A DNA stretch of 64,000 bases from Agrobacterium pusense. Its GTDB lineage: Bacteria > Pseudomonadota > Alphaproteobacteria > Rhizobiales > Rhizobiaceae. The stretch covers positions 124,001 to 188,000 of the forward strand of contig NZ_FNBB01000007.1 in assembly GCF_900102105.1 (NCBI RefSeq), given 5' to 3'. Of the stretch, positions 48,654 to 56,042 are shown in pieces (the first letter of the stretch is position 1; every line of letters begins with the position of its first letter). The notes beneath the pieces were generated by a model. That model was not told the DNA's origin, did not search any database, and saw only the letters and a list, made by a program, of their open reading frames with translations. Position numbers and translations under genes: made by a program.

Positions 48654-49937
48654 ATGTCCACGTCGCATCCTTATGATCCCGGTTTTTGCCGCGACTGTCT
48701 GGTCGGCCAGCCAGAGGGGCTGAGACGTTGCCGTGCCTGCGGGAGCCCGCGGCTTGTCTATCACGCCGAACTCTACGGTCTGAGCATCGCCCATATCGAT
48801 TGCGATGCCTTTTATGCCTCCGTTGAAAAGCGGGATAATCCGGAACTGGCCGATAAACCTGTCATCATTGGCGGCGGCAAGCGCGGGGTGGTTTCCACGG
48901 CCTGTTATATTGCCCGTATTCAGGGCGTGCGCTCCGCTATGCCCATGTTCAAGGCGCTTGAAGCCTGTCCCGACGCCGTGGTCATCAAACCTGACATGGA
49001 GAAATACAGTCGTGTCGGGCGCGAAATCAGGGCGATGATGCAGGAGTTGACGCCGCTGGTGCAGCCGCTTTCCATAGACGAGGCGTTTCTCGATCTTTCA
49101 GGCACCGAGAAGCTGCATCACGATCCACCGGCGCGCGTGCTGGCGAAATTTGTCCGGCGCGTGGAAAAGGAAGTGGGGGTGACGGTTTCAGCCGGGCTTT
49201 CCTACTGTAAATTTCTCGCCAAGGTCGCGTCCGACCTGCAAAAGCCCCGCGGCTTTTCCGTGATTGGCGAAGCGGAAGCGCTGTCGTTTCTTGCGGCGCG
49301 GCCGGTCACGACCATCTGGGGCGTGGGCAAGGCCTTCGCGGCGACGCTGGAGGCCGACGGCATCCGCATGATCGCACAGCTGCAGGAGATGCAGGAAAGC
49401 GAGCTGATGCGCCGTTATGGCGTGATGGGCCAACGGCTCTTCCGGCTGTCGCGCGGCATTGACGAGCGGCATGTGCACAATAACGACCCTGCCAAAAGCG
49501 TCTCATCCGAAACCACCTTCTTCAACGATATTTCCCGCCATGAGGACCTTGTGCCGATCCTGCGGTCGCTCTCGGAAAAAGTCGCCTGGAGGCTTAAGAA
49601 AAATGGCATTGCCGGCCATACGGTTGTCTTGAAAATGAAGACGGCCGACTTCAGGATTCGCACCCGTAATCGCAAGCTGGACGACCCCACGCAGCTTGCC
49701 GACCGAATTTTCCGCACCGGCCTCTCATTGCTCGAAAAGGAAACCGACGGCACGAAATTTCGCCTCCTCGGCATCGGCGTCAGCGATCTGCGCGATGCCG
49801 GCCTTGCCGATCCTCCCGATCTCGTCGACAGACAGGCGGGGCGCCGGGCCGCGGCGGAAGCGGCAATGGACAAGCTGCGCGACAAGTTCGGCAAGGGCAG
49901 CGTCGAGACCGGCTATACGTTTGGCTCGCGGAAATAA
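48654..49937 (+). CDS. dinB: DNA polymerase IV with N-terminal zinc-ribbon extension
   Basis: Y-family translesion polymerase. The catalytic motifs are intact: [39 protein letters not shown]. The little-finger domain runs to about residue 390, and there is no obvious C-terminal beta-clamp QL motif beyond GYTFGSRK. Unlike E. coli DinB (351 aa), this 427-residue form has about 40 extra N-terminal residues with Cys12-x2-Cys15 and Cys26-x2-Cys29, a likely zinc ribbon. The product adds bases opposite damaged template with low fidelity. Confidence 0.92.
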
Positions 49938-51365: not shown

Positions 51366-54300
51366 TCACACCAGCTCTACATCAACGACACCGGGGGCTG
51401 ACCGAAGAGCAGCGGCTATTTCGGGCGAAATACGGTATTTCTCCGTCAGCTCGACCTCGATCTCGCGGCTCCCCTCATCCTTGATAACGATGAAATAGAC
51501 CGAGCCGTCACCCCTGGTGTTGAGGTGGCGGGCAACCGTTTTCAGCGGGCCGGAATCACGCACATAAACGCGCAGTGCCTTCTGCATCTGCACGGATTTT
51601 TCTTCCAGCGACTGCGCCGTCTGGATGCGCAGACCGATACCTTCAGGGCGCTCTTCCGCCTGCACCGTGATCACCAACGACTTGCCGACCTCAAGCAGGT
51701 CGCGGTACTGGCCGAGACCTTCGGAAAACAACACCGCCTCATATTGCCCTGAAGCATCCGAGAAGGTGACGATACCCATCTTGTTGCCGGTGCGCGTCTT
51801 TCGCTCCTGTTTGCCGGTAACGGTGCCGGCAAGACGCCCGGCAGTCGCTCCCTGTTTCACAGCAGCGGAAAAATCGGCGAAATTCTGCACGCGCAATTTT
51901 TCCAGTACGGGGCGATAGGTATCCAGCGGGTGGGCCGTGAGGTAGAAACCGAGAACCTGATATTCGCGCAGCAGCTTTTCCGAGGCAAGCCAGGGCTGGA
52001 AGGCAGGAAGCACCAGCTTTTCCGGGCCATTGCCGCCGCCCGAGCCGAACATGTCCGACTGGCCGATGGTGCGGTTGTTCTGCGCCATCTGGGCATAACC
52101 GATGATACGGTCCAGCCCGCCGATCAACTCTGCGCGGTCGCGGCCGAAACAATCGAAAGCACCGGCATTGATGAGACTCTCGAGCACACGACGGTTAATC
52201 TGTTTGGGGTCGATGCGCAGGCAGAAATCCTCGAGGCTCGTGAACGGCTTGTCGCCGCGGATCGCCACGATATGTTCGACCGCTCCTTCGCCAACACCCT
52301 TGATGGCAGCCAACGAATAATAAATGCGGTTCTCGCCCGTTTCGAACTGGCGGAACGAGGTCTGGACGGACGGTGCTACGATTTCGATGCCGAGACGACC
52401 GGCGTCCTGACGGAAATCGTTGAGCTTTTCCGTATTGGCCATATCGAGCGTCATGGAGGCCGCCAGGAACTCCACCGGATAATGCGCCTTCATATAGGCC
52501 GTCTGGTAGGAGACAATCGCGTAGGCTGCGGCATGGCTCTTGTTGAAGCCGTAATTGGCGAATTTTGCGAGGAGATCGAAGATGGTGTCGGCCTGCGGTT
52601 TCGAGACACCGTTCTTGATGGCGCCATCAACGAAGCGCTCGCGCTGCTTGTCCATTTCCTCCTTGATCTTCTTACCCATGGCTCGGCGCAGAAGATCGGC
52701 TTCGCCAAGCGAATAACCCGACAGAACCTGGGCGATCTGCATCACCTGTTCCTGATAAACGATAACGCCCTGTGTTTCCTTCAGCAGATGGTCGATGGCC
52801 GGGTGGATCGATTCCAGCTCTTCTTCGCCATGTTTGCGGGCGTTATAAACGGGGATGTTCTCCATCGGGCCGGGACGATATAGCGCCACCAGAGCGATAA
52901 TGTCCTCAATGCAGTCCGGCCGCATGCCGATCAGCGCCTTGCGCATGCCGGCACTTTCCACCTGGAACACGCCGATGGTCTCACCGCGCGACAGCATTTC
53001 ATACGTCTTGGCGTCATCGAGCGGGATGGCGGCGAGATCGACCTTGATGCCGCGCTTGGCGACAAAATCGACGGCCACCTTCAGCACCGTCAGCGTTTTC
53101 AGGCCAAGAAAGTCGAATTTGACGAGGCCGGCGCTTTCAACCCACTTCATGTTGAACTGGGTGACCGGCATATCGGACCGCGGATCGCGATACATCGGCA
53201 CCAGCTTCGACAGCGGCCGGTCGCCGATGACGATACCGGCAGCATGGGTTGAGGCGTGGCGATAAAGCCCCTCGATCTTCTGGGCGATATCCAGCAGGCG
53301 CGCGACAACAGGCTCCCTGTCCGCTTCTTCCTGCAGGCGCGGCTCCTCCTCGATCGCCTTCGAAAGCGGCGTCGGGTTGGCCGGGTTGTTGGGCACCAGC
53401 TTGCAGATCTTGTCCACCTGCCCGTAGGGCATTTCCAGCACGCGGCCGACGTCGCGCAGGGCCGCGCGCGCCTGGAGCGAACCGAAGGTGATGATCTGCG
53501 CAACCTGCTCGCGGCCGTATTTGGCCTGAACGTAGCGGATCACTTCTTCACGACGATCCTGGCAGAAATCGATGTCGAAGTCGGGCATCGACACGCGTTC
53601 AGGATTAAGGAAGCGTTCGAACAGCAGTGAGAAACGCAGCGGATCGACATCGGTAATCGTCAGCGCGTAAGCGACGAGCGAACCCGCGCCCGAACCACGG
53701 CCCGGTCCGACCGGGATATCGTGCTGCTTGGCCCATTTGATGAAGTCGGCAACGATCAGGAAATAACCGGGGAACTTCATGCGCGAGATGACGCCGAGCT
53801 CGAAATCGAGCCGCTCGCGATAATCCTGTTCCGTATAACCTGGCGCCATACCGAGCGCGGCAAGGCGCTGATCCAGCCCCTCCACCGCCTGACGTCGAAG
53901 CTCTTCCGCTTCGGCGCGTTCCGCCGCCTCAGGATCATCGCTGGCGCCGGTGAAACGTGGCAGGATAGGCCCGCGCTTCTTCAGCACATAAGAGCAGCGC
54001 AACGCAATCTCGACGGTATTGTCCAGCGCCTCCGGCAGGTCTGCAAACAACGCCGTCATTTCTTCTCGACTTTTGAGGTAATGGTCGGGCGTCAGGCGAA
54101 AGCGGCTGTCGTCCGAAACAATGGCATTATGCGCCACCGCCATCAGCGCGTCATGCGCTTCGTAGTCGGCCTTTGACGGGAAGAACGCCTCGTTTGTGGC
54201 AACCAGCGGAATATCATGGTCATAAGCGAGGCCGATCATACGCCGCTCATGCGAACGGTCATACCCGGACTGACGCTGCAATTCGATATAAAGCCGGTCA

Positions 54301-54866
54301 CCGAAGAGTGACTTCAGTGTCAGCAGCCGTTCCTTCGCCTGGGCGGCATGACCTTCCCTCAAGGCCATATCCACCGGGCCGCCGGAAGCGCCGGTCAGCG
54401 CGATCAGGCCCGCATTTGAGTCCTCTTCCAGCCATGCGCGGGTAATGTGCACGGAATGGCCACTGCCCTCGCCCTCAAGATAGGCACGGCTCACAAGATC
54501 CACCAGCCGCTCATACCCTTCGGCATCGGCGGCGAGAAGAACGATAGCGGGAAGTTTCTGAAGGTGGCTGTTGTGGTTGCGGCGATCCTCCGCCGCATCC
54601 TGCATGTCGATCGACAGCTGGCAGCCGATGATGGGCTGCAAACCCTCATCCCGCGCCTTCTCGGAAAACTCCAGCGCAACGAAAAGGTTGTTGGTATCTG
54701 TAATGGCAATGGCCGGCTGGCCGTCTGAAACGGCCTTGGACATGATTTTCTTGAGGGGCAGAGCCCCTTCAAGCAGGGAGTAAGCGGAATGAACCCGAAG
54801 ATGAACGAAACCCGGGGTGTTCAGGTTTTCGTCAGAGGTTTCTGCCCGCACAACCGTATCGCCCAT
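51366..54866 (-). CDS. dnaE: DNA polymerase III subunit alpha
   Basis: Replicative polymerase of 1166 residues. It opens with the PHP domain (FVHLRVHSAYSLLEGALPLK), has the catalytic aspartates in SMPDFDIDFCQDRREEVI, the thumb/fingers region ending with LMRRAMGKKIKEEMDKQRE-like motifs, the helix-hairpin-helix and OB domains (GKQERKTRTGNKMGIVTFSD) and a C-terminal tau-binding region. The length is typical of DnaE1. AGGA is 8 nt upstream of the ATG at 54866. A 28-codon ORF with SOS boxes lies immediately upstream on the same strand. Confidence 0.97.
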   Translation of the reverse strand: MGDTVVRAETSDENLNTPGFVHLRVHSAYSLLEGALPLKKIMSKAVSDGQPAIAITDTNNLFVALEFSEKARDEGLQPIIGCQLSIDMQDAAEDRRNHNSHLQKLPAIVLLAADAEGYERLVDLVSRAYLEGEGSGHSVHITRAWLEEDSNAGLIALTGASGGPVDMALREGHAAQAKERLLTLKSLFGDRLYIELQRQSGYDRSHERRMIGLAYDHDIPLVATNEAFFPSKADYEAHDALMAVAHNAIVSDDSRFRLTPDHYLKSREEMTALFADLPEALDNTVEIALRCSYVLKKRGPILPRFTGASDDPEAAERAEAEELRRQAVEGLDQRLAALGMAPGYTEQDYRERLDFELGVISRMKFPGYFLIVADFIKWAKQHDIPVGPGRGSGAGSLVAYALTITDVDPLRFSLLFERFLNPERVSMPDFDIDFCQDRREEVIRYVQAKYGREQVAQIITFGSLQARAALRDVGRVLEMPYGQVDKICKLVPNNPANPTPLSKAIEEEPRLQEEADREPVVARLLDIAQKIEGLYRHASTHAAGIVIGDRPLSKLVPMYRDPRSDMPVTQFNMKWVESAGLVKFDFLGLKTLTVLKVAVDFVAKRGIKVDLAAIPLDDAKTYEMLSRGETIGVFQVESAGMRKALIGMRPDCIEDIIALVALYRPGPMENIPVYNARKHGEEELESIHPAIDHLLKETQGVIVYQEQVMQIAQVLSGYSLGEADLLRRAMGKKIKEEMDKQRERFVDGAIKNGVSKPQADTIFDLLAKFANYGFNKSHAAAYAIVSYQTAYMKAHYPVEFLAASMTLDMANTEKLNDFRQDAGRLGIEIVAPSVQTSFRQFETGENRIYYSLAAIKGVGEGAVEHIVAIRGDKPFTSLEDFCLRIDPKQINRRVLESLINAGAFDCFGRDRAELIGGLDRIIGYAQMAQNNRTIGQSDMFGSGGGNGPEKLVLPAFQPWLASEKLLREYQVLGFYLTAHPLDTYRPVLEKLRVQNFADFSAAVKQGATAGRLAGTVTGKQERKTRTGNKMGIVTFSDASGQYEAVLFSEGLGQYRDLLEVGKSLVITVQAEERPEGIGLRIQTAQSLEEKSVQMQKALRVYVRDSGPLKTVARHLNTRGDGSVYFIVIKDEGSREIEVELTEKYRISPEIAAALRSAPGVVDVELV

Positions 54867-54971
54867 ATCATCATCCTGTCATTCTGAATCACGGGGGCGA
54901 TTTTCCGATTTCCGGCGCTTGATGTCCACCGCTTTGCGATGTCCATACAGGCTTCTGCGCCGGTATCTTCT

Positions 54972-55058
54972 TCACAGCGCGGTGAGGATTACCGAAAAGC
55001 TGGCAACGAAGACAGCAATGGAGGTGAAAGCGGCAACGTCACGGATGAAATCAGTCAT
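54972..55058 (-). CDS. 28-aa single-helix membrane peptide, probably SOS-regulated
   Basis: A 28-codon frame with ATG at 55058 and an excellent ribosome site (AAGGAG, 7 nt spacing). The peptide starts MTDFIRDVAAF, then has about 20 apolar residues (FTSIAVFVASFSVILTAL), so it would be one transmembrane helix with a short charged N-terminus. The promoter region carries three GTTC half-sites at 11-bp intervals. Size and shape resemble the SOS-induced division inhibitor SidA (29 aa) of Caulobacter and the toxin TisB (29 aa) of E. coli, although I see no sequence identity. dnaE starts 105 bp downstream. It is too short for normal gene calling. Confidence 0.65.
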   Translation of the reverse strand: MTDFIRDVAAFTSIAVFVASFSVILTAL

Positions 55059-55079
55059 TGGTCTCTCCTTACTCGTTAT

Positions 55080-55114
55080 GTTCCAACTTTGTTCTTATTT
55101 CGTTCGATTGTCAA
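55080..55114 (-). promoter_or_regulatory. Tandem LexA (SOS) boxes over a TTGACA promoter
   Basis: On the plus strand GTTC occurs at 55080, 55091 and 55102, each separated by exactly 7 bp: two overlapping GTTC-N7-GTTC operators, the alphaproteobacterial LexA consensus. A consensus -35 TTGACA, reading leftwards, lies at 55114-55109, so the boxes fill the space from -35 to -10. The arrangement predicts tight LexA repression of the 28-aa ORF. Confidence 0.75.
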
Positions 55115-55205
55115 CAGGGTTCTGCTGATGTTCTCCTTGCCAACGTGGCAGAATCGCTTTCGGTTCCCGCTTCCAAAACCGCAAGCCGCTGACTCCAAAG
55201 CGAAA

Positions 55206-55231
55206 AACCCGGAAGAAAAATCCTCCGGGTT
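55206..55231 (-). terminator. Rho-independent terminator of the lolC-lolD unit
   Basis: Perfect 8-bp stem AACCCGGA/TCCGGGTT, followed in the minus direction by TTTTT. It lies about 130 bp beyond the lolD stop and before the SOS-boxed small ORF. Confidence 0.8.
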
Positions 55232-55358
55232 CAAAAAATGAAACTTGGAAAATCCATGCTCGCGGCAGCCAAGCGGCTAGCCTCCGTCAAGGTCGCATCC
55301 GATCCCTCGCCTCACCCGCTGTTCGGCGTCGGTGGAAGGCGGGACAGGCTCGGTCACG

Positions 55359-56042
55359 TCAAAAATCGACGATCTTGCCCTCGGCGAGCGTTACGCGGCG
55401 ATCCATCCGGCCGGCGAGCTCGTGGTTATGCGTCGCGATCAGTGCTGCGAGGCCGGACTGGCGAACCAGCGCCTCCAGTGCGTCGAAGACATAAGAGGCG
55501 GTCTCCGGATCGAGATTGCCAGTCGGCTCGTCCGCCAGCAGCAGGAGCGGTGCATTGGCGACGGCGCGGGCAATGGCGACGCGCTGCTGTTCCCCCCCGG
55601 AGAGCTCGGCCGGACGGTGTTCGCCACGATGCCCCACCCGCATGTAATCCAGAAGCGCGCTCGCGCGTTTACGCGCCTCCGCCTGTGACAGGCCGGCGAT
55701 GAGCTGCGGCATCATCACGTTCTCAACTGCCGAAAACTCGGGCAGCAGATGGTGGAACTGATAAACGAAGCCGATGTCGCTGCGGCGGATCGCCGTGCGC
55801 GTCTCATCCGGCAGGCCGTTGCAGGGCGCATCGTTGATATAGACTTCGCCGGCGTCTGGATGTTCGAGAAGCCCGGCGAGATGCAACAGGGTGGATTTGC
55901 CGGTACCGGAGGGGGCAACCAGCGCCACCATCTCACCGCTCTTCAACTGGAAATCCGCCTTGCGCAGAATGGAAAGCGACGTCTCGCCCTGACCATAGGT
56001 TCTCTCGACGCCGGTAAGCCGCAGCACTGTTTTTTTTGCCAT
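55359..56042 (-). CDS. lolD: Lipoprotein-releasing ABC transporter, ATPase
   Basis: ATPase of the Lol machinery that extracts lipoproteins from the inner membrane to LolA. The 227-residue protein has Walker [16 protein letters not shown], the signature [14 protein letters not shown], Walker [13 protein letters not shown] and the H-loop in ATHNHELA. The length is normal. It follows the permease gene by 15 bp. A 130-bp tail then leads to a terminator. Confidence 0.95.

Follow-up and report, generated by a model that had tools for sequence, protein, structure and literature searches.

Organization of the dnaE1 locus

The window is a 64,000-nucleotide stretch of Agrobacterium pusense DNA (contig NZ_FNBB01000007.1, positions 124,001 to 188,000). 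Within it, a short open reading frame (ORF) lies between lolD and dnaE1, all three on the minus strand, and is preceded by a LexA-type operator. The features are as follows.

51366 to 54866, minus strand: dnaE1 (DNA polymerase III alpha), directly downstream of the ORF across a 105-nt gap
54900 to 54928, minus strand: promoter-like match (9 of 12, sigma-70 scan) in the gap between the ORF and dnaE1, which could serve dnaE1 alone
54972 to 55058, stop codon included, minus strand: 28-amino-acid ORF, proposed sidA ortholog (conserved frame and sequence relation to SidA)
55065 to 55070, minus strand: AAGGAG ribosome-binding site, 6 nt before the ATG (from sequence; purine-rich sites are similar in the orthologs listed)
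55080 to 55105, no strand assigned: LexA-type operator of three GTTC half-sites with 7-nt spacers, that is, two overlapping GTTC-N7-GTTC pairs (from sequence and conservation)
55109 to 55114, minus strand: TTGACA, a −35-like hexamer directly upstream of the operator (from sequence; TTGAC is conserved)
55119 to 55133, no strand assigned: additional GTTC-N7-GTTC pair upstream of the −35 hexamer, a possible auxiliary site, poorly conserved (from sequence)
55205 to 55232, minus strand: terminator-like hairpin between lolD and the ORF promoter
55359 to 56042, minus strand: lolD, the upstream neighbor

The frame translates to MTDFIRDVAAFTSIAVFVASFSVILTAL, 28 codons beginning with the ATG at 55058, as an earlier note on this DNA had read it. 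That note had also described a repeated GTTC operator, a TTGACA −35 element, and an AAGGAG ribosome-binding site, and each of these is present: GTTC begins at 55080, 55091, and 55102 on the plus strand with 7 nt between each, the hexamer reads TTGACA on the minus strand (55114 to 55109), and AAGGAG occupies 55070 to 55065. The note missed the pair at 55119 to 55133, which 6 of the 30 loci read from the genus carry, a count that includes the window. In Caulobacter, GTTCN7GTTC has been published as the LexA box (PMC12700426, PMC9578287), and from the nature and position of the site we infer that LexA represses the ORF.

A sigma-70 scan flagged no promoter before the ORF; its sole match is the one at 54900 to 54928, against 0.4 expected by chance in the stretch scanned. 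The terminator-like hairpin at 55205 to 55232 implies that the ORF probably begins its own transcription unit, and no terminator-like site was found in the 105-nt gap to dnaE1.

The predicted helix of the peptide carries no charged residue (there is no charge after D7) and has a hydrophobic moment of 0.15; its mean hydrophobicity is 0.76, versus 0.70 for the SidA peptide of Caulobacter vibrioides. Scans with Pfam and NCBIfam, the latter at E values up to 10, gave no match for any of three Rhizobiaceae peptides, and a search of a phage sequence set for phage copies gave no match.

Conservation of the frame and operator in Rhizobiaceae

The earlier note had proposed comparing the region upstream of dnaE across Rhizobiaceae, and the comparison supports both the frame and the repeats. 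The peptide is present in all 37 same-genus genomes searched (E = 4.5e-8 or better), the count least affected by the caveats of similarity-based retrieval, ATG starts, and duplicates given below. In a draw from the family, matches at E values up to 10, the weakest of which are not secure, were found in 164 of 297 genomes and 62 of 109 genera. We read 140 Rhizobiaceae loci in detail (L001 to L056 and L087 to L170), 110 of them distinct because some genomes were reached by two routes. In all 140 the frame is exactly 28 codons long; the ATG start of these frames holds by construction because our script considered only ATG-initiated frames. Across 97 distinct DNAs, pN/pS is 0.28, a value that retrieval of the loci through protein similarity would tend to lower, and 31%, 7%, and 62% of the differences fall at codon positions 1, 2, and 3, respectively. 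An alignment of 29 Rhizobiaceae rows keeps M1, D3, R6, A9, A10, S13, and F17, with D7 near-invariant. The codon-position bias and constant length lead us to reject conservation of a noncoding element, and the 28-codon frame is very probably a real gene, as judged from these sequence patterns. The neighborhood is stable as well, with dnaE present in 140 and lolD in 133 of the 140 loci.

The operator is conserved together with the frame. On the ORF strand, an exact GAAC-N7-GAAC pair lies between −70 and −20 of the ATG in 133 of 140 loci (104 of 110 distinct), and the triple half-site form occurs in 47 of 140 (32 distinct). The seven loci that lack an exact pair are L024, L050, L052, L053, L100, L115, and L170. 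TTGAC is found at the corresponding position in 136 of 140 loci (106 of 110 distinct). Control patterns with CAAG, CTTG, or GTTC in place of GAAC were found in none of the 140. Within the window itself the pair motif is not above chance (4 found versus a shuffle mean of 2.25, standard deviation 1.49); the triple half-site arose once in 60 simulated windows. It is therefore the conserved position and spacing, and not the window count, that place the operator above chance and lead us to reject a chance origin.

Genome-wide, the pair occurs 184 times, versus 75 times for the reversed pattern. We inspected 16 genomic LexA-type sites, hand-picked for AT-rich spacers among the first 100 listed. Clear repair neighbors among them, judged from N-terminal fragments, are lexA (L072), ssb (L067), a radical-SAM repair gene (L391), and a UvrD/PcrA-like helicase gene (L395); 9 of the 16 sites fall within long ORFs of uncertain coding status.

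sidA as the Caulobacter gene before dnaE

We selected Caulobacter genomes by their match to the ParB segment of PDB chain 6t1f, which we take to be the C. crescentus protein (G1162 and G1008, 100%; G1053, 99%). In these genomes (loci L383 to L385), an operator and a short ORF likewise precede dnaE, and the ORF encodes a 29-amino-acid form, MIRVARES(F/L)ALVSV(V/I)GFVWMMCTVANLVA. The ORF of L385, directly before dnaE and with GAAC-N7-GAAC, matches the NCBIfam model NF033228 (div_inhib_SidA) with 72.4 bits against a cutoff of 35. Its divergent neighbor is an inosine-uridine (IU) nucleoside hydrolase gene (PF01156), and lolD ends just past that gene, so that the order lolD-sidA-dnaE is kept in Caulobacter with one gene inserted. 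An in-frame upstream start in L383 to L385 would lengthen the SidA frame to 33 to 40 amino acids; sidA is among the genes whose start was corrected through ribosome profiling (PMC4117421).

Published locus tags agree with this arrangement. sidA is CCNA_02004 (PMC10769358, PMC11034885) and CCNA_02005 is an inosine-uridine nucleoside hydrolase (PMC3667746). Caulobacter dnaE is CC1926 and lexA is CC1902 (PMC1839093); with lexA also given as CCNA_01979 (PMC11535069), dnaE would be CCNA_02003 if the offset holds. SidA is described as a 29-amino-acid inner-membrane protein that acts on FtsW (PMC4211646), and the filamentation of Caulobacter lacking lexA is attributed to sidA (PMC12700426).

A search of 38 genomes of the Caulobacter order returned 30 loci, 22 of which carry the pair. 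The other eight (L364 to L367, L369 to L371, and L377) have a SidA frame but no exact pair in the region scanned before dnaE; their operator may be degenerate or lost. The Caulobacter peptide found nothing in a plasmid sequence set.

Sequence relation to SidA

Profiles of the Rhizobiaceae peptides (A1), those of other Hyphomicrobiales (A3), and the Caulobacteraceae SidA peptides (A2) align without gaps and have R/K6, D/E7, and F17 in common. Profile-profile comparison gave E = 1.1e-11 for A1 with A3 and E = 2.6e-6 for A3 with A2, while the direct comparison of Rhizobiaceae with Caulobacteraceae gave E = 1.2e-4 at a probability of 55%. The unshifted register was the best of nine, with a column-permutation p of 0.0006, and of 0.008 when permutation was kept within the hydrophobic and within the polar columns. 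The A2 and A3 rows were hand-chosen from the listed candidates and trimmed to a fitting Met, with GTG starts written as M, and the agreement at Met1 is thus partly by choice. The Caulobacteraceae-type alignment (13 rows) keeps M1, R6, S13, F17, V18, W19, and A25; W19, invariant in these rows, is absent in Rhizobiaceae.

Resemblance to the single C. vibrioides SidA peptide is weak. Against it, the Rhizobiaceae HMM scored 3.4 bits, a value reached by 131 of 1,914 scored shuffles, and an ungapped score gave p = 0.009, or 0.06 with hydropathy classes kept. With two other peptides, L374 and L386, the same HMM scored 11.3 and 11.9, each reached by one shuffle, and NF033228 gave these peptides 67.8 and 44.3 bits. 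NF033228 itself found no match in the three Rhizobiaceae peptides at E values up to 10, nor in any of seven peptides from outside Caulobacteraceae-like genomes. Ten remote peptides divided into three Caulobacteraceae-type ones that match the SidA model (one below cutoff), one with a subthreshold match to the model of the type I toxin YonT, and six with no match. The L376 peptide, from the same family as Caulobacter, reached only 23.5 bits, below the cutoff of 35; the model is therefore narrow, and we file the Rhizobiaceae peptides, which it does not match, as remote orthologs and not as members of the model.

The case for SidA is thus a combined one of place, operator, length, and profile, and not of a pairwise match. 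The residues most likely to matter are R/K6, D/E7, S13, and F17.

Distribution outside Rhizobiaceae

Searching 297 genomes of the order with the Rhizobiaceae profile yielded 25 nonfamily or weak loci (L171 to L195). Fourteen of these adjoin dnaE, 12 of them with a same-strand GAAC pair at most 200 nt before the frame; the remaining 11 look like chance matches. A second survey went by place and not by sequence, taking the regions before dnaE, some shorter than 700 nt where a contig ended. Among non-Rhizobiaceae Hyphomicrobiales, an exact pair lies within 700 nt in 23 of 26 loci, an uneven sample since these were the nearest by DnaE; outside Hyphomicrobiales it occurs in only 14 of 106 dnaE-upstream regions, sampled evenly across the class. 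Control patterns in 139 regions gave 0 for CAAG, 1 for CTTG, and 9 for opposite-strand GTTC. In 5 of the 23 Hyphomicrobiales loci (L311 to L313, L315, and L322), the pair lies about 500 to 580 nt before dnaE and is not followed by a convincing SidA-like ORF.

After removal of three loci and the window's own, the combined set holds 165 loci, of which 60 carry the operator. A short hydrophobic ORF follows the operator in 54 of these 60, versus 14% of 2,062 control draws in loci without an operator. The pattern [RK][DE]x9F, widened from R6, D7, and F17 of the Rhizobiaceae and tried late, is present in 30 of the 54 peptides, themselves picked by operator and hydropathy (shuffle mean 0.38, maximum 4), and in 17 of the 39 that remain without SidA-like and repeated peptides (shuffle mean 0.29, maximum 3). 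An HMM of the Rhizobiaceae rows alone placed 25 of the 54 above the 1% shuffle threshold. A further pattern, [RK][DE]..[AS], set after the peptides had been seen, occurs in 31 of 54 (shuffle mean 1.97, maximum 8) and in 34% of hydrophobic control ORFs, the latter rate being partly explained by real SidA frames in loci without an exact operator.

The Sinorhizobium meliloti counterpart

In S. meliloti Ak57, a 28-amino-acid ORF, MADFVRDLAAFASMSLFIVSISVIALGL, with a triple operator lies before dnaE, at the place of a translated sORF, sORF25, reported in the 5′ UTR of dnaE1 in strain 2011 (PMC10117765). From its place, sORF25 appears to be the same ORF as the 28-amino-acid peptide. That ribosome-profiling study suggests that at least some 5′-UTR sORFs may act as upstream ORFs (uORFs) and singles out sORF25 before dnaE1 as noteworthy; LexA, SOS, and DNA damage go unmentioned in its main text (PMC10117765). 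One S. meliloti record, CP090106.1 (L401, 1484270 to 1489353), is 3.72 Mb long and labeled plasmid pSymB; it carries proS, a Lol permease gene, an ABC ATPase gene, and dnaE, which suggests that it is probably the chromosome, mislabeled.

Proposed function and alternatives

We conclude with good confidence that sidA has its Rhizobiaceae ortholog in this ORF, whose product, a LexA-repressed peptide, would stop division by way of the late divisome. The promoter would be kept shut by LexA sitting on the direct GTTC/GAAC repeats that separate the −35 element from the ribosome-binding site, as the site and its position suggest. By established SOS logic, RecA-driven cleavage of LexA after DNA damage would open it. 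The 28-residue product, with a short charged N terminus and one uncharged helix, is predicted to insert into the inner membrane and, like SidA, would probably hold the late divisome (FtsW/FtsI/FtsN) inactive until repair is done. By analogy with Caulobacter, then, A. pusense would be expected to induce the peptide upon damage and to block division. Read-through across the terminator-free gap may also raise dnaE1 expression, and the promoter-like match at 54900 to 54928 could drive dnaE1 apart from the SOS promoter.

The resemblance to Caulobacter SidA (NF033228, CCNA_02004) extends to the position directly before dnaE, GAAC-N7-GAAC, a length of 28 versus 29 residues, a single helix, and a gap-free alignment with R6, D/E7, A10, S13, F17, and V18 in common. 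The two differ in that identity is only 32% over 19 columns, NF033228 has no match and W19 is absent in Rhizobiaceae, the window has a triple half-site, and Caulobacter has the divergent nucleoside hydrolase gene between lolD and sidA. DidA of Caulobacter is likewise a small single-helix membrane protein that is induced by DNA damage and blocks division late, but it is 71 amino acids long and SOS independent (PMC4211646).

Three other readings of the ORF were weighed. The one that survives best, although we consider it unlikely, is that this SidA-family SOS membrane peptide has changed its target in Rhizobiaceae (for example, to polar growth or another divisome protein) and would cause growth arrest by a route other than an FtsW/FtsN block. 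Rhizobiaceae grow from one pole, and the C-terminal half of the peptide, including W19, differs between Rhizobiaceae and Caulobacteraceae, both of which would suit such a change; on the other hand, the shared residues fall within positions 1 to 19, possibly the functional portion.

It is improbable that the ORF is a LexA-controlled leader peptide (uORF), through whose translation dnaE1 is tuned while the peptide has no function in trans. Its same-strand position 105 nt before dnaE1, with no terminator-like site between, and the uORF suggestion made for sORF25 agree with this reading. Conservation of the amino acids under purifying selection argues against it, as do the retention of a hydrophobic helix in 54 of the 60 loci with the operator, the varying gap to dnaE (105 nt in the window versus 150 nt in S. 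meliloti, with the proviso that a leader need not keep a constant gap), and the fact that the Caulobacter gene at the equivalent place encodes SidA, a known trans-acting inhibitor.

Still less probable is a TisB-like SOS toxin that forms pores, depolarizes the membrane, and leaves cells dormant. TisB of Escherichia coli is also a short SOS-induced membrane peptide, but its helix is amphipathic and charged and its expression is under antisense control. The SOS-type operator, the 28-residue length, the single helix, and the subthreshold YonT match of one remote relative (L171; E = 0.18, 12 bits against a cutoff of 45) recall such toxins; the uncharged helix with its moment of 0.15 disfavors depolarization, and the locus and residues point to SidA. 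The earlier note had proposed an SOS-induced micropeptide that either arrests division or depolarizes the membrane; we retain division arrest, which orthology supports, SidA being the product of the equivalent Caulobacter gene, and set depolarization aside.

Returning to SidA orthology, a broader reading seems to us evenly balanced between right and wrong: SidA would be an ancient alphaproteobacterial checkpoint peptide, fixed as the first gene of the dnaE unit, where one LexA switch both stops division and raises the replicative polymerase.

Significance

The peptide family is of a known kind, SidA; its Rhizobiaceae member is new, in that the three peptides scanned lack an NCBIfam or Pfam match. 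Among the titles and abstract openings listed for SidA homologs and rhizobial SOS division inhibitors, in a collection with little subscription literature, none names such an inhibitor for Rhizobiaceae. The analysis provides this family with a candidate SOS division inhibitor whose counterpart is experimentally known, and it offers a probable role for a translated S. meliloti sORF that had no assigned function. The finding carries SidA past what the NCBI model detects, which suggests that current annotation models understate how widespread this checkpoint protein is. Very short proteins can escape a model based on a narrow group and still be revealed by gene order and an operator.

A few kilobases from dnaE1, on the plus strand, the frame at 48654 to 49937 appears by eye to encode a DinB-type polymerase with an N-terminal CxxC...CxxC that resembles a small zinc ribbon.
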